Assembly: GCF_010748935.1 (NCBI RefSeq)
Contig: NZ_CP048796.1
Span: forward strand, 3,041,001-3,105,000
Length of the DNA stretch: 64,000 nt
Source of the DNA: Providencia vermicola
Lineage (GTDB): Bacteria > Pseudomonadota > Gammaproteobacteria > Enterobacterales > Enterobacteriaceae
Reading direction: 5' to 3'
The position numbers were made by a program, and so were the translations under genes. Positions 21,984 to 32,694 of this stretch are shown here, piece after piece; within the stretch, counting starts at the first letter, position 1, and every line of letters starts with the position of its first letter. The notes under the pieces are model-generated. The model was not told the origin of the DNA. It worked only from the letters and a program-made list of their open reading frames with translations, and searched no databases.

Positions 21984-22032
21984 ATTCTATTCCCTCAGAA
22001 ATGGACACGAAGTGAAAGTAAAGACGAGGCGA

Positions 22033-22686
22033 TTACACTACTGACAACAATTGATTGAGCCATGTTTGACCGCCCCAAGTGATGGCGGTAATACCAATAA
22101 GCAACAATGCACTCCAAAACCCGAAAGAGCGCATCAATTTTAGACTGGATTTTTGATGATACTGGATAACTAACGGCAAAGTAGACTCCGGCGGTGATAT
22201 CTGTGCAGTCAGTTTATCCATTAATAATTTTCGCTCGGGACTTAGCGCTTCAGTTGTAGCCTCGTGGGCGCTAAAACCGAGCATTAAGACTCGATGGAAG
22301 CAGGTTAATACGGCATCGTTCGGTTGAGCCTGCCCCAACACTGAGCGAATACGATCCCATAATGCTTCCCCTGCATCCAACGATGAAAAATAGCGCGCTT
22401 GTAAGGGGGCAACTCGCCAAGCATAGAATGCGTCACCTTCTTCATCACCCCGAGCCAATAGTTCCATCGCGGTTTTATCCAATAATGCACACTGTGCATA
22501 GATAATGTGCTCAATATTCTCGGAAGCTAGTTTTGTTTGGCCCAATGCACTTTTTACGACATCAATTTGTTGACAACACGTATCGTAAAGGGACTCTGAA
22601 TCGTGGTCATACCGACCGTATTTTAGCTGGGTCACCATCAACCAGGTTTTTGCCATGAGTTTATCGATATCGATGTATTGGTTCAT
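22033..22686 (-). CDS. tssL: T6SS inner-membrane protein TssL (DotU-like)
   Basis: This 217-residue protein has a soluble DotU domain ('IDKLMAKTWLMVTQLKYG', 'YAQCALLDKTAMELLARGD', 'ARYFSSLDAGEALWDRI') and one C-terminal transmembrane helix (about residues 188-210). It lacks the OmpA-like peptidoglycan-binding extension seen in some TssL proteins, so it belongs to the short class. TssL is an inner-membrane anchor that binds TssM and TssK. The start overlaps the end of tssK by four bases, so translation is coupled. Confidence 0.92.
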   Translation of the reverse strand: MNQYIDIDKLMAKTWLMVTQLKYGRYDHDSESLYDTCCQQIDVVKSALGQTKLASENIEHIIYAQCALLDKTAMELLARGDEEGDAFYAWRVAPLQARYFSSLDAGEALWDRIRSVLGQAQPNDAVLTCFHRVLMLGFSAHEATTEALSPERKLLMDKLTAQISPPESTLPLVIQYHQKSSLKLMRSFGFWSALLLIGITAITWGGQTWLNQLLSVV

Positions 22687-24032
22687 GAGCGTAATACCGC
22701 AAACAGTTCTAGCTCTAAGAAACCAAATAAAGATGGCACATACAGCATACAGACACCTTCTTCCAACATTTCACGCATCTCCGGAGCCTCCATATCCAGC
22801 GCAAAGTATTGGTTTTCCATGCGCACAGGGAGTGCCGCAGGCACTCGGTCAACCGGTGTGAGTGGAATACCATTTAATGCTTTACTGTAAAGTGTATTAA
22901 CCGTATCAGGCGCACCAATTTTGCACAGCGTTGGGAATTTTTCGGCAATTTCCCACGCGGTTTTATCAGAACGAACAGACAGATAAAAATCCGCTTCCTC
23001 TCTAAGCCTGAGGTCATGCAATGAAGCTCGCCAAGTTTGTGGGTCTGGGTGCGTCATTTCAAGCGCAATCACGCGTGAAGGCAAGCTGGTTTCTAACAAG
23101 GTACTGAGCAAGTCAAACAAAGGTGGGAACGTATTTTCTAGGTCGTCATGGACATAGGCAGGAATGGTTGCAAGATCATGCTCTAACGAAAAGGTTAATA
23201 AACTCCCCGCCAGACGCGTCAATTCAGCCCAAATGATTTCAGGGTGGCGCTGTGGGTAGCGTTCATAATTCATCAGAACATTAGCATGGGAGTTTAAGGC
23301 GTTTAACAACCAAAATAAGGAAACATCAGCGACGGCAAAATCGGCTAAACGCTCATTGCTTTCTCGACGCATTGCCATCAGTCGTTGGCAACGAGAGCGT
23401 ATTTGCCGATTCAGCAAGGCTAACCGTTCTTGTAGCTCTCGACTCGCAGAAAATTGAGTCATCGGAGGAATAAACTTTCTATCTATAATCCACCCTCCCT
23501 GACCATCACGAGTTAGACGCGCAATGGGACACGTTTGCCAAGCTTCATTATTTTCATGTTGAAAACGAATAGCGATATTAAAGCGAGCAACGGCCATGGA
23601 TTCATCATCTTGACCAAATAAGTCCGACACATTCACCCACTCTTCACGATAGCGTAACGCGCGTTCTGAAAAAGCCCCTTTTTTTTGAACATTCACGATC
23701 CCTTGCTGGAGAAGTGGCAATGCTAACACAATAACAAGACTGTCTGTTTGAGATAACGCGGCTGAATTTAATTCTCGGGGCTCAGGAGTGATATCACTGA
23801 CTTGCGTATCGACTAATGCCCCATCAGGTAACCATGCCCTTAATTGGTGAACTTGTAAACGACCAGACGACAAGAGCGATTCGTCAAGTTCCACTTTTTC
23901 TATCCCCCAAGTAAAGGGAGAGGATAAACCTGAAACACCTTGGTTTGTAAAGTCTTCCCACTGAGCTTGTTGTTGAAATTGTTGCGGAGAGAGCAATGCC
24001 CCTTCATTCCATAATGGGCGGTAAATTTTCAT
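22683..24032 (-). CDS. tssK: T6SS baseplate-to-membrane linker TssK
   Basis: This 449-residue protein opens 'MKIYRPLWNEGALLSPQQFQ', the classical TssK start, followed by 'QWEDFTNQGV' and 'WGIEKVELDESLLSSGRL'. The C-terminal head contains 'YFALDMEAPEM' and ends 'LFGFLELELFAVLRS'. Length is normal for the family. Trimers of TssK connect the baseplate wedges to TssL and TssM. A Shine-Dalgarno AAGGA sits about seven bases before the start. It is the first intact T6SS gene of the operon in this window. Upstream sequence is not an intact T6SS gene. Confidence 0.93.
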   Translation of the reverse strand: MKIYRPLWNEGALLSPQQFQQQAQWEDFTNQGVSGLSSPFTWGIEKVELDESLLSSGRLQVHQLRAWLPDGALVDTQVSDITPEPRELNSAALSQTDSLVIVLALPLLQQGIVNVQKKGAFSERALRYREEWVNVSDLFGQDDESMAVARFNIAIRFQHENNEAWQTCPIARLTRDGQGGWIIDRKFIPPMTQFSASRELQERLALLNRQIRSRCQRLMAMRRESNERLADFAVADVSLFWLLNALNSHANVLMNYERYPQRHPEIIWAELTRLAGSLLTFSLEHDLATIPAYVHDDLENTFPPLFDLLSTLLETSLPSRVIALEMTHPDPQTWRASLHDLRLREEADFYLSVRSDKTAWEIAEKFPTLCKIGAPDTVNTLYSKALNGIPLTPVDRVPAALPVRMENQYFALDMEAPEMREMLEEGVCMLYVPSLFGFLELELFAVLRS

Positions 24033-24864
24033 TTTATGATCCTTTTAAGCAAAGATAATCGGCATGTTAACTCGTTTTTCTAATGCGACACGAAGGTGAG
24101 ATAGGCGTTCAACAACTCTCGAAAATGAAATATTTCTAATATTTTGATACGCTACCGCCCTTAGCTGTCACCCAAAGCCCATAAGGTTAAAATAATCTAT
24201 TGTTGTCCAAACAAATCAATCCAGATTAATAAAAATGCCATTTTAAAACGTCCGCCCCCCATCAAATGATGAATTCGATTGATAGACAAACTAAGATTAA
24301 ACGACCATATCCTAAATACACTATTCAAATTATAGGGATTAACGGATAAGCCAGCAATTATTTTTATTAATTTACCTTATGTGACGATAAATACGCATAA
24401 TAAGCGTTATAGACTAGCTGAACTAGAAATAAAATGTATTGTAAGGTAACAGAATGAAATACTCTGGAGTGAAGACGAACTTAAGAAGGTATGTTAGCGC
24501 ATTCAATGCTGTGTTGTATGTTATCAATTAGAAAAGTAACGTAAGAAAATTTAATATATTATACCTATACTATGAGTGAAGAATGTTTCTTTCCAGTTTC
24601 TCAATACGATGCTTACTTTCATGATTCGCCTCAGTATTGCGTGATAAGCATCAGAGATAGATGGGATAACGAAGCCAGTATGTAGAAAATGATGATCGAC
24701 TTTATCGGTGATTTTGTCTAACTCTTCCGCTATAAGCCCAGTAGAATTCACTCATGTAATAGGTTCAAACGCATATAGAAATAACTGTTTTTCAATGCGT
24801 TTTCTTGGTTTCATAACAATCTAACAATCCCCTCTTTAATTTAGAGATTTAGCAGAGCAATTAA

Positions 24865-25083
24865 TACAGGCTTGACCGACAGAGACTAGTAGCGGAGGTA
24901 GCTAGGCAACTGAACAACACTTACCGGACGCAATCCGTGGAAAATTCAGCACGTAACGATTTTGGGCAATATATCAGTGATATTGTTGATACTTTAATCG
25001 ACATCATTCCCTTGTCACCACTGATAAAAAATACGATTAGTACAGTCAAAAATAGCATCGTATCTGTTGCTAAATCCCTGTAG
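24865..25083 (+). pseudogene. 3' fragment of an unidentified gene
   Basis: A frame of 72 sense codons without a credible start ends at TAG 25083. Its tail is well-formed protein: 'NDFGQYISDIVDTLIDIIPL' followed by 'SPLIKNTISTVKNSIVSVA'. That is an amphipathic helix pair typical of the C-terminus of a larger protein. Upstream of the fragment the frame is closed by stops. I read it as the surviving end of a deleted gene at the border of the mobile region. The family is not recognised. Confidence 0.35.
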
Positions 25084-25115
25084 AGCCTGTTCTTTTAACT
25101 TCTTACGTTAACTCA

Positions 25116-25133
25116 CCGTTTAACCTTGCCGTA
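25116..25133 (+). repeat. Direct repeat, copy 1
   Basis: The 18-base string CCGTTTAACCTTGCCGTA recurs at 25944-25961 with a single C/T difference. Similarity extends a few bases to the left (GTTAACTCA versus GTAACATCC). The two copies are 828 bases apart and bracket the small ORF at 25239-25424 and the GGTCA palindrome array. Confidence 0.6.
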
Positions 25134-25238
25134 AATCCCTGCTGTAATTTTGTTGTGATTTTGTTTCAATCTTGCTGCTCATAATAGATAACCTATTGAT
25201 ATATTAGGTAACACATATTTGCATCACGGTAACTTATA

Positions 25239-25424
25239 CTAAATAGTAACTATCTGCGCCCCTGTTAGCTGATAACCATTAAACCATTCATAGCGACCTG
25301 TAACCGTGGCTTTGTTTTCTTTCTGGCAGGTCATTAGCTCCAGCGCGTTAATATGGAATGCCACTAGATTTAATGGGTACGGGCTACGCTTGTCACTCTC
25401 CGCCTGAATAGTCATTGTGGCCAT
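25239..25424 (-). CDS. Small phage-like hypothetical protein
   Basis: This is a 61-residue frame with a good ribosome-binding site (CAGG seven to eight bases before the ATG). The protein contains 'SPYPLNLVAFHINALELM' and ends 'YEWFNGYQLTGAQIVTI'. Short proteins of this character are common in enterobacterial prophages and satellites, but I cannot assign a function. It stands alone between two copies of a direct repeat and within the mobile-DNA block. It may be a leftover of a replication or control module. Confidence 0.45.
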   Translation of the reverse strand: MATMTIQAESDKRSPYPLNLVAFHINALELMTCQKENKATVTGRYEWFNGYQLTGAQIVTI

Positions 25425-25762
25425 AACTTTACCTGTGCGGTTCTAACTCTCTCAGAGGCTTTTATTACCGTTCCTGACGTGTTGATCCTGATTGATTTCG
25501 CTTTTCTCATTTTTGGTTTATTCATCTTGATACCATCACAATATAAGCCATCGGTTAAAATATAATTCAGGTAGGATTCTGTGTGTATAGGTAATCAATC
25601 TAATTATCAGAGGTGATCGAAACGTTAATTTAACCATGATGATACGGGATTATCCTGTATATGGCTATAACCTGTTGATTATACTTAATTCCGTTAAAAC
25701 GACGGAATCAAAATACAACTAATTGATAACGTTTAATTCAGTCACAAAACCAGATTAACGCT

Positions 25763-25887
25763 CATTGGTCATCGTTTCAGTGACCAATGGTAAGAGGTGG
25801 CAACACATTGTTTTTATTGCGAGAGGTCACAGTGACCACTAACCTTGTCACAACTCATTGATGTAACTACTAACGGTCAAATTGATC
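25763..25887. repeat. Cluster of three GGTCA/TGACC palindromes
   Basis: Three related inverted repeats lie within 125 bases. CATTGGTCA and TGACCAATG (25763-25771 and 25781-25789) have a 9-base spacer. GGTCAC-A-GTGACC lies at 25825-25837. A looser GGTCAA-A-TTGATC lies at 25875-25887. The shared half-site GGTCA suggests a protein-binding array (operator or origin iterons) in the mobile block. No gene uses it obviously, because flanking ORFs are short or broken. Confidence 0.55.
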
Positions 25888-25943
25888 GCCAGAAACCTCA
25901 CCGTAATCTCACCGTTATCGGCTTAATCCTCCCCGTAACATCC

Positions 25944-25961
25944 CCGTTTAATCTTGCCGTA
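25944..25961 (+). repeat. Direct repeat, copy 2
   Basis: CCGTTTAATCTTGCCGTA matches the copy at 25116-25133 in 17 of 18 positions. It is surrounded by further CCGTAA and CACCGTTA words, so it is part of a short-repeat cluster rather than an isolated duplicate. Confidence 0.6.
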
Positions 25962-26030
25962 GTTCGTTATTGTTGCTATCTATCTTTCCCTCATTAGTGA
26001 GGGCAACATCAATTTTATAATATTACGTTA

Positions 26031-26799
26031 TGTCCACTCCCCTTTAATTGAGACACACCAATTTAGCGTTTTCTAACTGTTGACGATAGGCCTCCGGTGG
26101 GAGGTGATTTAAACTTTCATGGGTTCGATTTTGGTTATAATCTTACAGCCAAAACCACGCTAATTCTCGCACTTGGCTTAATGATTCAAATAAATACGCA
26201 TTTAAAAACTCACGACGGAACGAACCATTAAAACGTTCGATAAACCCATTTTGCTACGGTTTTCCCAGTTGAATATGGCACAGAAAAATTTGGTTATCTT
26301 CACAATAATTCAATAAGTTAACTGAAATGAGTTCAGGACCATTATCGACTCGGGTCTGTTTCGGCAACCCTCTTTTCGGCTTTTAAACGATCAAGCACCC
26401 TGATGACGCGTTCAGCCGGTAATGACGTATCAACTTCGATCGCTAGGCATTCACGCGTTCCTTCATCAATAATATTGAGGGTTCTGAAGCGTTTGCCGCA
26501 ATATAAACTGTCGTGCATAAAATCCAATGCCCATTGAATATTCGGGACTTTCTCTATGACTAATGGTCTTTTTTCACGCTTCGGAAGCACTTTTTTAACC
26601 CGTCGTTTCAGATTTAATCCTAATTCACAATAAACGCGATAAACTCGTTTATGATTAAAAGGATAACCTTGAAATCTCAATCGAAAATAGCATTTCCAGA
26701 ATCCCGACTGTGGAGATTTAGCTAAAACGGATTGTATGGCATCGATGACGATTTTATCTTTCTCTAATTATAGCTGTCTTATTTTAGGGGAAGTGGACA
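26031..26799 (-). mobile_element. IS3-family insertion sequence, internally deleted
   Basis: The element is bounded by imperfect terminal inverted repeats. TGTCCACTCCCCTTTAATTG starts at 26031, and the right end at 26799, read on the minus strand, begins TGTCCACTTCCCCTAAAATA. It spans only 769 bases, whereas IS3-family members are about 1.2-1.5 kb. The missing part is orfA and the 5' portion of orfB next to the right end. The flanking bases (TTA left, ATG right) do not match, so no target duplication is visible. That fits an old or rearranged copy. It cannot move without a transposase from elsewhere. Confidence 0.8.
26044..26770 (-). pseudogene. IS3-family transposase orfB remnant
   Basis: Reading from about 26770 downward, the catalytic DDE domain can be followed: 'DKIVIDAIQSVLAKSPQSGF', 'NIQWALDFMHDSLYCGKRF' (first Asp), 'RVDNGPELISVN' (second Asp) and 'NGFIERFNGSFRREFLNAYL' (Glu). 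The frame is broken. A +1 shift occurs near 26380, where 'KAEKR' should continue as 'GLPKQTRVDNG'. Two in-frame stops follow, after 'QLGKP' and after 'WFWL'. The N-terminal part and orfA are absent. The gene is dead. Confidence 0.85.
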
Positions 26800-26929
26800 A
26801 TGCCAGTAGAAAGCGTGATGATGTAAAGAGATTGTGGGTGGAATGCTCTAAAAATAGCAGGAGCATTTAAGCACCACATCCACAATAATATATGGTGCTT
26901 GTGAGTTAGTCGTGTAAGTCAATTAGTAT

Positions 26930-27289
26930 TCATTTTTTTAATTGTTCTTGATAATGCTGAATCTTAAGTTTTAAGTTACTTAAGTGTTCATTCAAAGATA
27001 AAATTTGCTTTTCAAGGTTAGCGTAGTGTTCAGTCAGCAAATTCATTCTCTCAAGTGAGGTAGATGAGCCTATATTTCTTAGTATCGAGTATTCTTTAAT
27101 CTTTTTTAAAGGCATACCCGTTTCTTTTAAGCGAGTAATAAACTTAACCCACTCAATATCATCTTCAGAATAGTACCTATGATTATTGGTTTGCCTAGAT
27201 GATTTCAATATTCCTTCTTTTTCATAGTATCTAAGGGTGTATATGGTGAATCCGGTTAGTTGTGCAAACTGACTGATTGAATAATTCAT
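26930..27289 (-). CDS. MerR-family transcriptional regulator
   Basis: This 119-residue protein has the MerR winged-helix start 'YSISQFAQLTGFTIYTLRYYEKEGILKSS' (broken here at family motifs TIYTLRYYE and GIL) and 'RYYSEDDIEWVKFITRLKET'. A long C-terminal coiled coil (residues about 80-118) provides the dimer helix. It contains no cysteine, so it should not sense metals or aldehydes through thiols as MerR, CueR or NmlR do. It is transcribed divergently from the short-chain dehydrogenase at 27368. The intergenic MerR-type promoter makes that gene its probable target, with autoregulation likely. Confidence 0.9.
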   Translation of the reverse strand: MNYSISQFAQLTGFTIYTLRYYEKEGILKSSRQTNNHRYYSEDDIEWVKFITRLKETGMPLKKIKEYSILRNIGSSTSLERMNLLTEHYANLEKQILSLNEHLSNLKLKIQHYQEQLKK

Positions 27290-27307
27290 GTATTACCTAG
27301 AAATTCC

Positions 27308-27338
27308 TTGACCTAGAGTTAACTCTATCTTTTACCAT
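27308..27338 (+). promoter_or_regulatory. MerR-type promoter/operator of the dehydrogenase gene
   Basis: A -35 box TTGACC (27308-27313) is followed after a 19-base spacer by TACCAT (27333-27338). The spacer contains the perfect 14-base palindrome TAGAGTTAACTCTA (27314-27327). An over-long 19-base spacer filled by a dyad is the signature of promoters that MerR proteins activate by twisting the DNA. It faces the dehydrogenase gene, whose start is 30 bases downstream. Confidence 0.85.
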
Positions 27339-27367
27339 TTTGAGACTTTTGTCAAAGAGGGTGTGTT

Positions 27368-28150
27368 ATGAAAAATAAACATTATGCGGTCGTTACGGGT
27401 GCGAGTTCAGGTATTGGACGTGAAATTTCAATAAAATTAGCTGAACGCGGGTTTAATATTATTGCAGTAGCGAGGCGAGACTCCTTGTTGAATGAATTGA
27501 AAGTCGAATTAGGCAAGATTAATGAAGGCATTGAGGTTGTCACAAAATCATGTGATTTATCTATTATCGATGATGCTATTTCACTTTATGAAGAGCTGAA
27601 AGTTTTTGATATTCGAGTATGGGTAAATAACGCTGGTGTTGGGTATTATGGGAAAGCATTTTCTCAGCCAATAAAAGATACAAAAGCTTTATTAAATTTG
27701 AATATTAATACACTCGCGATTTTATCGTTAATGTTCGTGCGCGATAACCAGAATATTGATGGTTCACAGCTGATCAATGTAAGTTCAGCAGGAGGATACA
27801 CTATAGTACCTACAGCCGTTACCTATTGTGGTTCGAAATTCTTTGTCAGCTCTTTTACTGAGGGGGTGGCACATGAATTATTAAACTTAAACGCTAAAAT
27901 TAAAGTTAAACTACTGGCTCCGGCAGCTACTAAAACAGATTTTGGTCGAGTTGCTAACGGGGTAGAATATTATGATTATGATAAGGTGTTTGGTACATAT
28001 CATTCTAGCGAGGAATTAGCTGATTTCTTCATTCAGCTATATGATTCAAATAATGTTGTTGGATACGTCGATAGAGAAAGTTTTAGCTTTAAATTACTAG
28101 ATAATAAAATGCCTTACGCGAACAACAACCAATTTAATCAAAAAATATAA
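27368..28150 (+). CDS. Short-chain dehydrogenase/reductase (SDR)
   Basis: This 260-residue protein has the classical SDR features: nucleotide-binding 'VTGASSGIGRE' at residues 10-20, 'NNAGVGYYG' near 90, catalytic Ser in 'NVSSAGGY', and Tyr and Lys in 'YCGSK' near 155-159. It should be a cytoplasmic NAD(P)-dependent oxidoreductase, but the substrate cannot be told from sequence. The gene is preceded by AGAGGGTGTGTT, which supplies a ribosome site, and by a MerR-type operator. It is followed by a hairpin terminator. The MerR-SDR pair is a self-contained cassette within the mobile block. Confidence 0.9.
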   Translation: MKNKHYAVVTGASSGIGREISIKLAERGFNIIAVARRDSLLNELKVELGKINEGIEVVTKSCDLSIIDDAISLYEELKVFDIRVWVNNAGVGYYGKAFSQPIKDTKALLNLNINTLAILSLMFVRDNQNIDGSQLINVSSAGGYTIVPTAVTYCGSKFFVSSFTEGVAHELLNLNAKIKVKLLAPAATKTDFGRVANGVEYYDYDKVFGTYHSSEELADFFIQLYDSNNVVGYVDRESFSFKLLDNKMPYANNNQFNQKI

Positions 28151-28159
28151 GTACGATGA

Positions 28160-28187
28160 AACCGCCAAGGCATAAGCCGAGGCGGTT
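28160..28187 (+). terminator. Hairpin after the dehydrogenase gene
   Basis: Arms AACCGCC (28160-28166) and GGCGGTT (28181-28187) form a stem, strengthened by an inner GGC/GCC pairing, nine bases after the stop codon. The following bases are AT-rich but not a clean T run, so termination may be partial. Confidence 0.6.
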
Positions 28188-28570
28188 ATATATAATTGGC
28201 CTTATCAACGAAAGGGAGCACCAAATATCACATGAAAAAATCATGATAAGTGACTTTAAACGTTGATGATTTAGTGACACGTTAGGACAATAGTTTTTTG
28301 GACATCGTATAGGGGCTAATGTGGATAGAATTATTTGATTTTAGAGTAATAAATAAAATGAAAATATAAATTTCTATCCTTAGGGTGACGCTAATTATGA
28401 AAAGAGAGCTAAAAATAACAAAACAAAATTCACATGCGTTATTAAATTAATAGTGTACGAAACCGCCGGATTGGTACATATAGTTATAACCATGTACGAA
28501 AACTAGTATAGTTAATTTCATACTCGAAATATAATTGATACATTCATTTCGTATAGGCAATTTAATTATG
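28188..28570. other. Intergenic stretch without recognised gene
   Basis: No coding frame or RNA is evident. The sequence is AT-rich, with short repeated GTACGAAA words around 28453-28501 and several weak dyads. It marks the junction between the MerR-SDR cassette and the satellite/prophage genes. I find no copy of the tRNA-Ser 3' end here that would mark the far attachment site. Confidence 0.4.
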
Positions 28571-28592
28571 GATACACCGCTTTGGGTGTATC
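28571..28592 (-). terminator. Hairpin after the antirepressor gene
   Basis: Arms GATACACC (28571-28578) and GGTGTATC (28585-28592) form an 8-base stem with a 6-base loop, 24 bases beyond the antirepressor stop. No long T run follows on the minus strand, so its strength is uncertain. Confidence 0.5.
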
Positions 28593-28615
28593 AAATGTTG
28601 TTAAGCCAACCATCA

Positions 28616-29410
28616 TTAGTTAGCCTCCAAACGCTGAACTAACCAACGTTGCGCCAACTCAGTTAATTGCGCCTTTCTCTGCGCAGTAGGTGTATCTAAA
28701 TCAAGGAAAGCACAATTACGAGCCTCTAAGTAGGCTAGTAGTTTTAACTGCTCTGTGCTCATGTTATCTCTGATTTCTTTAGACTTAATGCCTTTGCTTT
28801 TAGCCCATTGAGTGGGGTTGACACCAAGTATCAATTTATTGATAAAACGTGACTCATTGCTATACGCAAAGCCTTTCTGGTTGTCACCTGTGCGCTCAAT
28901 ATAGCCTTTCATCGCCTCGGCCATATTTTTATGATCTTCACATGCAGCAACACGATTTTTGCGCCAGTTCTGCATAACGGCTTTATGTTCTTCTGGCGCG
29001 GCTCTGCGCAGTCGCTCCTCACATTCGATAAAATATTGGCGTGCTAATTTGCCCTGGTCATTACGTTCAACCATAGACAGCTCTTTTCCCATGTTGAGGC
29101 TGACAATATAGTCATGCTCGAATTTCTGCCTAAATTTTGTGCTCCCCCGTTTTGGTGAGCTCAAATTTTCCACAACGATATAATCGATATTCTCAACAAA
29201 GCCATATTGTTTAATTCGCCCTTTAATCCAGCTAGTATAGTCACGACCAACTTTTAGAAATGAATGTAATTTACGACTACTCACTGATTGAATTTCTTTC
29301 CCGTTAATACGGTTATTAATAACAGGAATTAAATAATCAAATGTACCCGCTAGCTCATTTTCAGGCAGAGTGCCCCCCTGACCAGTTATGGCCATATTTT
29401 TATTTTTCAT
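28616..29410 (-). CDS. Phage antirepressor (AntA/AntB-type N-terminal domain)
   Basis: This 264-residue protein contains the AntA/AntB region 'VSSRKLHSFLKVGRDYTSWI', 'YGFVENIDYIVVE', 'DYIVSLNMGKELSMVERND' and 'GKLARQYFIECEERLRR' (residues about 40-135). The charged helical C-terminal half differs among such proteins. Antirepressors bind a phage repressor and release lysogeny or induce a satellite. It is the last gene of the minus-strand phage module and is preceded by AAAGGG about nine bases before the ATG. The first dozen codons are nearly identical to those of the next gene upstream, which is unusual. Confidence 0.85.
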   Translation of the reverse strand: MKNKNMAITGQGGTLPENELAGTFDYLIPVINNRINGKEIQSVSSRKLHSFLKVGRDYTSWIKGRIKQYGFVENIDYIVVENLSSPKRGSTKFRQKFEHDYIVSLNMGKELSMVERNDQGKLARQYFIECEERLRRAAPEEHKAVMQNWRKNRVAACEDHKNMAEAMKGYIERTGDNQKGFAYSNESRFINKLILGVNPTQWAKSKGIKSKEIRDNMSTEQLKLLAYLEARNCAFLDLDTPTAQRKAQLTELAQRWLVQRLEAN

Positions 29411-29431
29411 AAGTTTTGCCCTTTTATTTAG

Positions 29432-29707
29432 TTAATTAAGAGCTGTCGCGACAACACGGGATAGCTTGACTAAATTTGTCTGCAAATACTCGCAAAACCG
29501 TACATGAATATAAAAAACATTATTTTGCGTGAATTTGCACAGATACTGTGATAGCCCTTTTAAACTTAAATAGTCATTTCCAAAATTGTAATATTTTACT
29601 TTTACATCAATAGGATAAATAAAATCAGAAATAACATTTAGAATACTTTCTTCCCTGACTTTAGGGTTAGAGAAGCCCTGACCCATTACGGCCATTTTAT
29701 TTTTCAT
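29432..29707 (-). CDS. Small phage-module protein of unknown function
   Basis: This 91-residue protein begins 'MKNKMAVMGQG', like the antirepressor downstream ('MKNKNMAITGQG'). The remainder has 'NVISDFIYPIDVKVKYYNFG' and 'LSQYLCKFTQNNVFYIHVRF' and matches nothing I recognise. A ribosome site AAGGAAA lies eleven bases before the ATG. It lies between the 130-residue ORF and the antirepressor and is probably co-transcribed with them. It may be a truncated relative of a gene that shared its 5' end with the antirepressor. Confidence 0.55.
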   Translation of the reverse strand: MKNKMAVMGQGFSNPKVREESILNVISDFIYPIDVKVKYYNFGNDYLSLKGLSQYLCKFTQNNVFYIHVRFCEYLQTNLVKLSRVVATALN

Positions 29708-29722
29708 ATTGCTATTTCCTTA

Positions 29723-30115
29723 TTATTCGACTGGGTAAAGCGTTAAAATCAGATCTGATTGATGGATAGAAATTCCGTCATACCCACCAGCACAAGCTCG
29801 GCTATTGATAAGATCAATAATCTTCTTTGCATCTTTCTGGTTACGAATACGGTAACGATAATGCGACCCTATCCCGTCTGGGTTCGGTTCGTCAGTACGT
29901 TCTAAGTTAATATTTAATTTACGCTCCAGTTCTGAAAAGTAATTACGGCCTGATGATAAGCGGCAATACTTTAAAATATCGTTTTCGGTAGAGCCGTTAT
30001 AGGCAGATAAAAAATATTTCCATGCTTTGATTTTTTTCGGTGGGTTCTTTGATAGAATAGATGCTGTCGCGTTATCCTGAGATGCCACCTGTGGCGGGTG
30101 GTTTTTCTTTTCCAT
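29723..30115 (-). CDS. Phage-module protein, possible winged-helix DNA-binding
   Basis: This 130-residue protein has a disordered, polar first 30 residues and then a compact domain: 'KAWKYFLSAYNGSTENDILK', 'YFSELERKLNINLER', 'GIGSHYRYRIRNQKDAKKII'. The helix-turn-helix-like spacing followed by a beta hairpin resembles small winged-helix phage regulators, but no family can be named. Its ATG overlaps the alpA stop (TAATG), so the two are translationally coupled. Similar small ORFs often follow alpA in enterobacterial satellites. Confidence 0.55.
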   Translation of the reverse strand: MEKKNHPPQVASQDNATASILSKNPPKKIKAWKYFLSAYNGSTENDILKYCRLSSGRNYFSELERKLNINLERTDEPNPDGIGSHYRYRIRNQKDAKKIIDLINSRACAGGYDGISIHQSDLILTLYPVE

Positions 30116-30312
30116 TAAGCCACCTCTCCAGTACGTGATTCAGCAATCTTATTTGCAATCCACTCATCTACTTCTGACTCAATAAAAGCAACAGAGCGAG
30201 TACCTATTTTTACTTGCTGTGGAAAGTCATTTTCTTTAATTAATCTATAAATCCATGCCTTGCTGTAACCTGTGCGTCGCAAAACCTCTGAAAGCCTAAT
30301 CAGATTATTCAT
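30115..30312 (-). CDS. alpA: AlpA-family excisionase/activator
   Basis: This 65-residue protein 'MNNLIRLSEVLRRTGYSKAW' continues 'IYRLIKENDFPQQVKIGTRS' and 'VAFIESEVDEWI', the complete AlpA winged-helix pattern. I chose the start at 30312 because AAGGAAAA precedes it by five bases. The frame can be extended upstream, but without a ribosome site. AlpA proteins activate integrase or excision genes of P4-like satellites and phage-inducible islands. It is the first gene after a long structured leader and is coupled to the next ORF through TAATG. Confidence 0.85.
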   Translation of the reverse strand: MNNLIRLSEVLRRTGYSKAWIYRLIKENDFPQQVKIGTRSVAFIESEVDEWIANKIAESRTGEVA

Positions 30313-31256
30313 AGAATTTTCCTTAATGTGATATGAAAAGATATGCGAAAACGCCCTATACATAAATGTATAAGGTATATAACGCATATTATGGTTTATA
30401 TTTTAGGGTATTTTTTGAGTGATGGGCTTATTGTTTAAAATAAAATAATTTCAATAATAAGCTGATTTGCGCTCACTGCCTGTGCCTAGAGCCTTGAAAA
30501 GAACATAGCTATAATTAATGAATATTTGATAAGGTAATATATCCATTGATATAGATATGAGCTTTGCTCCTGATGCAGGAGCGAAATAAATTTTAAAGAA
30601 CAGAACTACACTCCACAAAGGCGGAGACTTAAATTTCAAAGAACAATTTACTAATTTGAATAATTACAATTATATAATTCAAATTAGCTGATTGCCATTA
30701 TCGACCTGAACTACATACATTTAGTAAACAGAGCAAAATCATTAAGTTGTTTACTAAAAGCTCCCGTTTGCAAGGAGCGCAGGTCATTTTTTAAAGAACA
30801 AGTAGCTATCTGTACAAGTTTTGCCACAAATACTATTTTGTGTTGAGAACTCATCAAAATGCTACACAATAAGTTAACCTTTTTGCACACGATGCATGTG
30901 CCGATATTATTATAAAAGAGCAAATAGCCTAATTTAAAGGCTATCAATACAACTTATATGCTCTGAGAAGTTCCTCTGAGTGTTCCTTATTTGTTACAAG
31001 CTGGTTCAGCCACTAGTCAAACTAAAAAAACAGTATATCAAGCACTTCAAAAGCGCCACTATGGCAGATTGTCCCTGAGAATTTACTCTGGGCATACTCA
31101 CATTTGTAAAAGAGCATTTAGTCACTTTATCAGTGACTCCATTCTGATAGCTAATAACTGGTTGCTATCAATGTTGTTAAAGAACATATCGCGCTTTTTC
31201 AGCGCAGAGGTGTTAAAGAGCTAAGTCCACAATGATCTACTGCGGTACTATTTGGT

Positions 31257-31284
31257 ATATTATACTGTAATAATAAACAGTCAA
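31257..31284 (-). promoter_or_regulatory. Sigma70-like promoter of the boxA leader
   Basis: On the minus strand TTGACT (31279-31284) is separated by 16 bases from TAATAT (31257-31262), within the string TATAATATA. Expected transcription would start near 31249, about 27 bases before the first boxA-like motif. It is the best promoter match in the phage module. Confidence 0.65.
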
Positions 31285-31443
31285 GCTTAAGAAGCGATCA
31301 AAGTCTATCGCCGCAATTTTACATGGTCTATTAAAGTCTACCAGAGTGTACTTTTATTAGATATTAAGATTTATCTTACACCATTAAGGCCTGTCTAAAT
31401 TCACGGGTTTAAAAATAAACCACTTAATGATAGCTATTTCAGG

Positions 31444-31475
31444 TACAAAAAAACCAGACCTTTCACTGTCTGGTT
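31444..31475 (-). terminator. Rho-independent terminator after the integrase gene
   Basis: On the minus strand AACCAGAC (31468-31475) pairs with GTCTGGTT (31452-31459) around AGTGAAAG. The stem runs straight into a T run, 22 bases after the integrase stop. It isolates the integrase from the leader promoter downstream. Confidence 0.85.
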
Positions 31476-31496
31476 CTGTATGTGGTTGCTGGTGGA

Positions 31497-32694
31497 TTAA
31501 GCGCGTTTAAAGTTACCGTGGACAACATTATCCCCATTCTCTAATGCCCCCATGTAATCAGCGTACCATTGAAGCATTTCTCTACGGCCATCAATGTACT
31601 GAGCATGGTTATACGTTCCACGGATAGAGTTTTTATCAACGTGCGCTAGCTGTGTCTCAATCCATGCCGTGTTATAGCCTTGTTCGTGTAGGATAGTGCT
31701 CATTGTGTGCCTGAATCCGTGACCTGTGGCTCTACCACTGTAACCCATGCGTCTAATCATCGTATTCAGTGCCATATCTGATATATGTTTTCTATAATCA
31801 GTGCGACTAGGGAATATATATTGATAACTGCCACTGATAGGGTGTATCTGTTTCAACAAATCAATAACCTGCTCTGATAGTGGTACAATATGAGGGCGGC
31901 GCATCTTCATTTTTTCAGCCGGTATTTCCCATACTCCAGTATCAAAGTTAATTTCTGACCATTCCGCCTTTCTCAATTCGCCTGGTCGAACTCCGGTTAA
32001 TATAAGCACCCTTAATGCCACTCTTACAATCTGGCTTCCCATGTACTTATCAATAGAAGAAAGAAACTCTGGTAATTCACTTACTGAAAGATGGGCGTAG
32101 TGCTCACGCTTATGAGGAACAAAGGCACTAGCTAAATCTGGTGCAGGGTTATACTCTACCCTACCCGTGATAATGGCGTACTTCCACACCTCACCGCAAC
32201 GTTGGCGCACTTTCTTTAGTTTCTCAGTTGCTCCGCGCTTTTCCATAATAGAAAGCACTTCAAGTAATTCCATGGGTTTGATTTCGGCAATCGGGCAATG
32301 ACCTATATAAGGAAATACATCTTTTTTCGAATGCGTCCATCATGTCATCACGATACCCAACAGACCAGCGATCTTTTCTGCCCTCATACCATTCAAGGGC
32401 AATATTTTTAAAGGTGTTTTCAGTTTGATTAATGGTGATCGCTTTTTCTGCTTTTCTGGATTCATTTGGATTAATAGCATTGGCGATCTGTTTTCGTGAT
32501 TTGTCTCTTTTCGCTCTTGCTTCAATGAGAGTGACAACAGGATAGATACCTAACGATATCATTTTAGTTTTGTCAGCAAATTAATAGCGATAACGCCAGC
32601 CTTTGGAGCCGTTAATTTCAACTAATAAAGATAGCCCGTTGGCATCCGCCAGCGTGTAGGATTTTGCTTTTGACTTGGCACGCTTGATTGCCAT
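31497..32694 (-). pseudogene. int: Tyrosine-recombinase integrase, broken by a nonsense codon and a frameshift
   Basis: The gene starts at 32694 ('MAIKRAKSKAKSYTLADANG') as in P4-type integrases. Codon 38 (32581-32583) is TAA. The frame continues directly after it with 'FADKTKMISLGIYP', so a CAA or similar codon probably mutated. A second lesion is one extra base in a run of six A (minus strand) at 32322-32327, which throws the frame out before 'DVFPYIGHCPIAEIKP'. The catalytic half (31497-32273) is intact: Arg in 'GVRPGELRKAEW', His-x-x-Arg in 'GHGFRHTMS', and 'LAHVDKNSIRGTYNHAQY' with the Tyr. It lies 167 bases from the tRNA-Ser 3' end. Reinitiation could give a C-terminal fragment only. 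Confidence 0.9.

Follow-up and report, generated by a model that had tools for sequence, protein, structure and literature searches.

Lambdoid phages depend on the early protein N to express their own genes, and rRNA-type leaders typically carry one boxA each. In lambdoid phages, N overcomes both Rho-dependent and terminator-type termination, as described in passages of PMC3526286. Helper induction has been described for the satellites EcCIMP1 and EcCICFT073, both of which are Gram-negative PICIs. According to passages of PMC11773190, mitomycin C switches on an alpA-lux reporter of EcCIMP1 (-449 to +50) in Kapi1 lysogens but not in a non-lysogen, so that DNA damage alone is not the trigger, and the reporter is still induced, less strongly, when AlpA is absent. 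The induction of this leader is therefore helper-specific, and the inducer is not named in those passages. The alpA gene of EcCICFT073 is also helper-induced, and the identification of its phage-encoded inducer is described as being under study in passages of PMC6092414. The stem "antiterminat-" has no occurrence in the text of either PMC11773190 or PMC6092414. Among the matches listed from open-licence PMC titles and the starts of abstracts, none tied satellites to nut sites or to N, which is weak evidence of novelty.

The locus described here lies in a 64 kb stretch of Providencia vermicola DNA (the window). A satellite element was found at positions 22000-32562, in which an integrase remnant and alpA follow one another in one direction next to a tRNA-Ser, matching the layout of Gram-negative PICIs. 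The window integrase is divided into two ORFs, whereas a relative in P. alcalifaciens (L026) has a complete integrase in a single ORF of 403 aa, and the window element is therefore probably a remnant. It keeps AlpA and an AntA/AntB protein, while the relative encodes an integrase, AlpA, Rha-like, Ash and ORF6N proteins and a D5_N primase; no primase was recognised by eye in the ORF list of the window element. Since this copy is probably a remnant, function is argued below for the family and not for the copy itself.

A leader of 938 nt separates the integrase remnant from alpA on the minus strand. Eight boxA-like sites were found in the sense orientation of this leader and none in the antisense orientation. 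Dinucleotide shuffles of the leader contained 0.076 such sites on average (500 shuffles, maximum 2), and 500 stretches of equal length from the rest of the window contained 0.034 (maximum 1). All eight boxA motifs that the initial annotation had reported on the minus strand are present, as is the sigma70-like TTGACT-N16-TAATAT (Table 1). With one mismatch allowed, the whole 64 kb contains 14 matches to the boxA motif against 9.2 expected, and 6 of 100 shuffles reach 14; as there is no clear excess over the whole stretch, the significant feature is the clustering on one strand. Likewise, a scan of 1.7 kb returned 11 promoter-like sites against 7.0 expected, so the match to TTGACT/TAATAT proves little by itself. 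Two TTG-start ORFs inside the leader (62 and 78 aa) were taken as chance. A 16-nt inverted repeat (94%; 30738-30753 and 31416-31431) was also observed, linking the middle of the array with a stretch upstream of the promoter.

When the leader was searched against 60 related genomes, G007 and G013 of the same genus gave long matches, so that three of the 24 genus genomes carry one with its own included. Of the short matches in other genomes, some are confined to the 3' end of the integrase region; others come as two pairs, in G014 and in contig 67 of G016, whose members lie on opposite strands with about 3.2 kb between them. The regions matched by these pairs are lambdoid immunity regions, with an N-like gene to one side and cro plus a CII-like gene to the other. 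The segments that resemble the leader occupy the positions of nutL and nutR in them. It is this placement beside N-like, cro and cII-like genes that identifies the boxA-hairpin units as nut sites. Judged by sequence, the leader strings together nut sites of lambdoid-phage type that differ in specificity and share one orientation. The inverted repeats that the initial annotation had placed near each boxA are located where it put them, but most of these hairpins are boxB elements lying 3' of boxA, an identity that it had missed.

A wider sample of nutR sites was obtained by searching the 24 genus genomes with the CII-like protein, which gave ten matches in seven genomes; these proteins match phrog_191, and a boxA precedes cII in nine of the ten. 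Together with two Providencia phages, the nine cII-linked sites make eleven, which were sorted by eye into eight boxB classes. The eight nut classes come from Providencia prophages and phages, where they sit at cro-cII or N positions. A phage search with the window leader returned eight records. Two are Providencia phages (E 4e-5 and 6e-3), and six from unrelated hosts, with E between 0.02 and 0.9, were taken as chance matches. In whole-site scoring, seven of the eight classes align to the leader, each at a different place, and for these seven neither 400 other window stretches nor 400 boxA-preserving shuffles contained an equal score. When boxB was scored by itself, classes 1, 3, 4, 5 and 7 had no equal in either null (0/500 each). 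Class 8 gave no significant match in the leader as boxB or as whole site, and neither did the class 6 boxB alone nor the nutL of the L349/L361 phage. Most classes were first met through their similarity to the leader, a bias that does not apply to four nutR sites found independently of it (L347, L348, L349 and L350), three of which match the leader.

Table 1. Features of the leader region in window coordinates. Within the parts column the first coordinate is the 5' end on the minus strand; boxB identities are followed by counts from 500 shuffles and 500 window stretches (both nulls), and whole-site scores by counts from the two sets of 400.
Feature	Position	Strand	Parts	Comparison
Promoter-like TTGACT-N16-TAATAT	31257..31284	-		Kept in 7 aligned leaders; first hexamer invariant, second with one substitution (L027)
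Conserved 5' hairpin	31227..31245	-	CCGCAGTAGATCATTGTGG	Invariant in 7/7 aligned leaders
nut 1	31191..31222	-	boxA 31222-31211; class 1 boxB GCGCTGAAAAAGCGC 31205-31191	boxB 15/15 identity with prophage and PSTNGR2lys nutR boxB, 0/500 in both nulls; whole-site score 52, 0/400 and 0/400
nut 2	31121..31186	-	boxA 31186-31175; auxiliary hairpin 31171-31145; class 2 boxB GTCACTGATAAAGTGAC 31137-31121	boxB 13/17 identity, 0/500 shuffles and 15/500 window stretches; whole-site score 77, 0/400 and 0/400
nut 3	31073..31116	-	boxA 31116-31105; class-3-like hairpin CCCAGAGTAAATTCTCAGGG 31092-31073 (A.A mismatch)	Class 3 resemblance by pattern only
Second class 3 boxB, without a boxA of its own nearby	30961..30980	-	CTCAGAGGAACTTCTCAGAG	21/22 identity with nutL and nutR boxB of prophage L337/L352, 0/500 in both nulls
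nut 4	30885..30922	-	boxA 30922-30911; class 7 boxB GCACATGCATCGTGTGC 30901-30885	boxB 17/17 identity with PSTCR7lys nutR, 0/500 in both nulls; whole-site score 58
nut 5	30760..30800	-	boxA 30800-30789; class 4 boxB GCTCCTTGCAAACGGGAGC 30778-30760	boxB 18/20 identity with nutR of prophage L347/L359, 0/500 in both nulls; score 39
nut 6	30611..30645	-	boxA 30645-30634; class 6 boxB TCTCCGCCTTTGTGGAG 30627-30611	Whole-site match to L349/L361 nutR, score 36, 0/400 and 0/400
nut 7	30566..30602	-	boxA 30602-30591; class 5 boxB GCTCCTGCATCAGGAGC 30582-30566	boxB 17/18 identity with nutR of L348/L360, 0/500 in both nulls; whole-site score 38, boxB part only
Unit 8	30471..30505	-	boxA 30505-30494; hairpin 30493-30471	No match of the hairpin among sampled nut classes
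Conserved dyad before alpA	30348..30376	-	CCTTATACATTTATGTATAGGG	Invariant in 7/7 aligned leaders; possible terminator or operator
alpA	30115..30312	-	65 codons, AlpA family	L026 relative, 97% identical, matches Pfam PF05930
Integrase remnant	31497..32562	-	two ORFs, 32562-32260 and 32273-31497	ORF list, L026 comparison

Phage-matched boxBs therefore stand behind six of the eight boxAs (1, 2, 4, 5, 6 and 7), and the extra class 3 boxB adds to these. Several hairpins have no partner among the phages, namely GGCGCTTTTGAAGTGC (31057-31042), the one behind boxA 8, and a CCCC...GGGG hairpin found behind boxA 4 in L257, L259 and L003; these may be boxBs of further, unsampled N classes. The boxB series also bears on the view that the boxAs recruit NusB-S10 without any role for N, either for rRNA-like antitermination or as a Nus sponge. 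Eight boxA copies close to the consensus GYTCTTTAANA (given in passages of PMC5725501) would be in keeping with it, but it leaves unexplained both the phage-type boxBs in seven classes and the helper-specific induction of the EcCIMP1 leader, and we consider it very unlikely. A decoy for NusB-S10, as raised in the initial annotation, would not predict differing phage-type boxBs behind six of eight boxAs.

N-like genes were found in the prophages of classes 1, 2, 3, 4, 6 and 8, and no N protein was found for classes 5 and 7 in the sampled prophages and phages. The class 1 proteins match phrog_271 and PF25694; phrog_271 is also matched by class 2 (1.8e-24), by class 8 (2.4e-4) and weakly by class 4 (0.018). 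The proteins of classes 3 and 6 match no N family (phrog_271), so that their assignment as N rests on position and on the C-terminus. In all six classes the C-terminal end is similar while the basic N-terminal part differs. The C-terminal types SGEVTARA and SDGSITARG were observed in L336, L337, L359 and L361-L365, and the basic N-termini vary as if RNA specificity had been exchanged as a cassette. No N gene was seen beside the satellite leader arrays.

Seven leaders were aligned, namely those of the window, L256, L257, L259, L026 (P. alcalifaciens), L003 (from G007) and L027 (Proteus myxofaciens), among which L256 and L259 are near-identical; another near-copy, L258, was excluded. All seven leaders keep the promoter-like hexamers (with one substitution in L027), the 5' hairpin and the dyad ahead of alpA. 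Modules are absent from L026, L003 and L027, and the hairpin behind the fourth boxA is of class 7 in the window and L026 and of another kind in L256-L259 and L003. Of the 183 pairs predicted by RNAalifold, 16 show a compensatory change.

Such variation has to be weighed for two further readings. One of them takes the modules as relics, that is, nut segments gathered by prophage recombination and functionless in the satellite, for which the broken appearance of the window element and the varying modules could be cited. The similarity between prophages and leader stops at the nut sites, however, and does not reach cro, cII or N; the segments share a single orientation and a single fixed place with a conserved promoter and 3' end, and the compensatory changes likewise argue against a loss of function. 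We regard relics as quite unlikely. The other reading, a long structured RNA, was among the proposals of the initial annotation and is unlikely, as relatives lack or exchange entire modules between a promoter and a 3' end that stay fixed. The leader does fold more stably than its shuffles (z-score -4.7; 0 of 20 shuffles fold equally well), but the Rfam search returned only tRNA, with no family at gathering score in the leader, and relatives exist without whole modules. That the leader is one large structured noncoding RNA with a function of its own thus appears hardly credible to us.

The same layout was found in diverged satellites of E. coli and of an Enterobacter MAG, with boxBs of the lambda, HK97/mEp234 and Kapi1 types. 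P22-type and phage-21-type are names used for boxB loops; the records compared here are those of mEp234 and Kapi1. The leader of one E. coli satellite (L318) has matches in 664 of 5426 genomes of E. coli. Among 60 evenly spaced matches, 26 span 62% of the query or more and come with an alpA regulator annotation, and the other 34 are confined to the same 48 nt. In phages, this segment finds 34 records: 30 have an identity of about 92-96%, and the remaining four, from Salmonella or Enterobacter phages, have 86%. It is matched in the nutL of HK97, mEp234, HK106 and 933W-like phages, and nutL is annotated at the match in five records (three 933W-like phages, mEp234 and HK106) among the matches listed. 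In E. coli O157:H7 F7386 the segment precedes an N-like ORF and cIII-kil-gam-bet-exo. The L318 leader also carries the exact boxB of lambda nutR. For the leader of the Enterobacter MAG (L028), the phage matches are weak (E = 0.01): identity is 82-84% in 18 records, and nutR is annotated in two of these. A hairpin with a CUAANN loop, GGCCTGCCTAAGTGTAGGTC, was observed in this leader and resembles the Kapi1 type of boxB. A further leader (L281) has no phage match at E 0.1 and carries GNRA-loop hairpins near its boxAs.

A survey of AlpA loci was carried out on the best 80 of 116 genome loci and the best 80 of 193 viral loci, some of which have little upstream sequence and several of which are near-copies of one another. 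Among these 160 best loci, at least two sense boxA-like sites were found within 2 kb upstream in 12 and one in 4; antisense sites occurred singly in 3 and in pairs in none. The refuting case named in the initial annotation, in which motifs and stems are lost while flanking genes are kept, did not arise in the Providencia and Proteus group or in several diverged satellites, although 144 of the 160 best loci, some of them with short upstream sequence, have no boxA-like site upstream. Genome-wide scans for boxA pairs and triplets gave mostly chance matches, with a pair in 121 of 394 genomes and matches to a reversed-pattern control in many genomes as well.

A link to published reporter data is provided by EcCIMP1, which occupies a tRNA-Thr next to proA, the site used also by the satellite of E. 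coli ABU 83972; the two have an identical AlpA protein accession. The reporter stretch from -449 to +50 spans the entire 427-nt leader of EcCIMP1, in which we found four boxAs, two of them strict and two weaker, along with several boxB-like hairpins. In the helper Kapi1, nutL and nutR each consist of a boxA and a boxB with a CUAACC loop, and Kapi1_020 (L369 7145-7450), annotated as hypothetical, is N-like by its match to phrog_271 (3.7e-32). In Kapi1, searched over its first 20 kb, a CUAANN loop on a stem of at least five pairs appears two times, at nutL and nutR; the EcCIMP1 leader has one such hairpin, and an E. coli background of 94,004 strand-bases has none. EcCIMP1 carries CUAAUA as its loop, which departs from the Kapi1 loop at the last two bases. 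The int-alpA gap of EcCICFT073 (L358 14160-14526) contains no boxA array; a lone CACTCTTAAAAA resembling the lambda boxA was observed there. Since EcCICFT073 is helper-induced without an array, other branches must use something else.

The main rival to a regulatory role is that the leader RNA soaks up the N proteins of lambdoid phages as an interference device, with alpA merely downstream. Many boxB types would suit such a decoy too. In the 12 best AlpA loci with two or more boxAs, however, the arrays directly precede alpA and are oriented towards it, an argument that is partly circular as the loci were selected by AlpA, and the EcCIMP1 leader drives a reporter on helper induction, which a decoy does not require. 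We hold the decoy to be unlikely.

It is likely, in our view, that the array stands between promoter and alpA as a multi-specific control element at which the N protein of a helper antiterminates transcription into alpA. Without a helper, transcription running leftwards from about 31250 would stop before alpA, either by Rho in the untranslated leader of about 900 nt or at a terminator near 30350. Upon helper induction or infection, the early N protein of the helper would bind the fitting boxB together with NusA, NusB-S10 and NusG, RNA polymerase would then read through into alpA, and the satellite cycle would start. The many boxB types would allow one satellite to answer many helpers. The Nus-dependent antitermination into alpA proposed by the initial annotation is thus retained as the best-supported reading, and N-dependent read-through is what we infer, but the units are nut sites that need a phage N and not boxA alone.

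Support for a terminator differs among leaders. In a loose search that covered 12 of the 14 leaders, each had a candidate. Under a strict test against single-base shuffles in ten leaders, four were supported (L257, L259, L027 and L281; 0 to 1 of 100 shuffles), one weakly (L028; 6/100), and five were not (the window, L026, L003, L316 and L318). The T-run after the dyad is good in L257, L259 and L027 and not in the window, L026 and L003.

Beyond this locus, we incline towards a broader view in which satellites keep evolvable captured nut cassettes, one or more for each class of helper N, as an RNA sensor that acts on alpA by antitermination, with N as the missing inducer for this branch. A leader with several types of phage on-signal probably wakes the satellite when any of several helpers becomes active. 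If this is true, N is the helper inducer for this branch of Gram-negative PICIs, which makes the question of the inducer directly testable, and the problem of responding to many helpers is met by collecting RNA sites instead of proteins. The likely helpers of a satellite could then be read from its boxBs, and the gain, loss and swapping of cassettes would track the lambdoid phages.

Comparison with known systems places the leader among several of them. The rRNA-type boxA leaders and their Nus complex have the boxA sequence in common with it, and passages of PMC5725501 show no phage-specific boxB series of the kind found in the window leader. SaPI Stl repressors answer several phage proteins, and the likeness lies in one satellite responding to unrelated helper proteins; according to the abstracts of PMC6695447 and other papers this is derepression by protein-protein contact, whereas the leader described here has RNA sites and a proposed antitermination. 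Phages of the mEp021 type have three nut sites and one N-like protein (passages of PMC11893012) and share with the satellite the trait of more than the usual two sites, but theirs are of one N specificity at separate places in the genome, while many specificities stand together in the satellite leader. The PICIs EcCIMP1 and EcCICFT073 share the int-alpA order, AlpA as master regulator and helper induction (passages of PMC11773190 and PMC6092414); EcCIMP1 has a nut-type leader like that of the window, whereas EcCICFT073 is without an array. The nutL and nutR of lambdoid phages (lambda, HK97, mEp234/HK106 and Kapi1) are alike in having boxA followed by boxB, several of the boxBs being identical or nearly so, and the N with its basic RNA-binding end is on the phage side. 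In a lambdoid phage the nut sites lie on early transcripts of the phage itself and serve the N that it encodes, whereas the satellite carries many boxB types in one leader before alpA.
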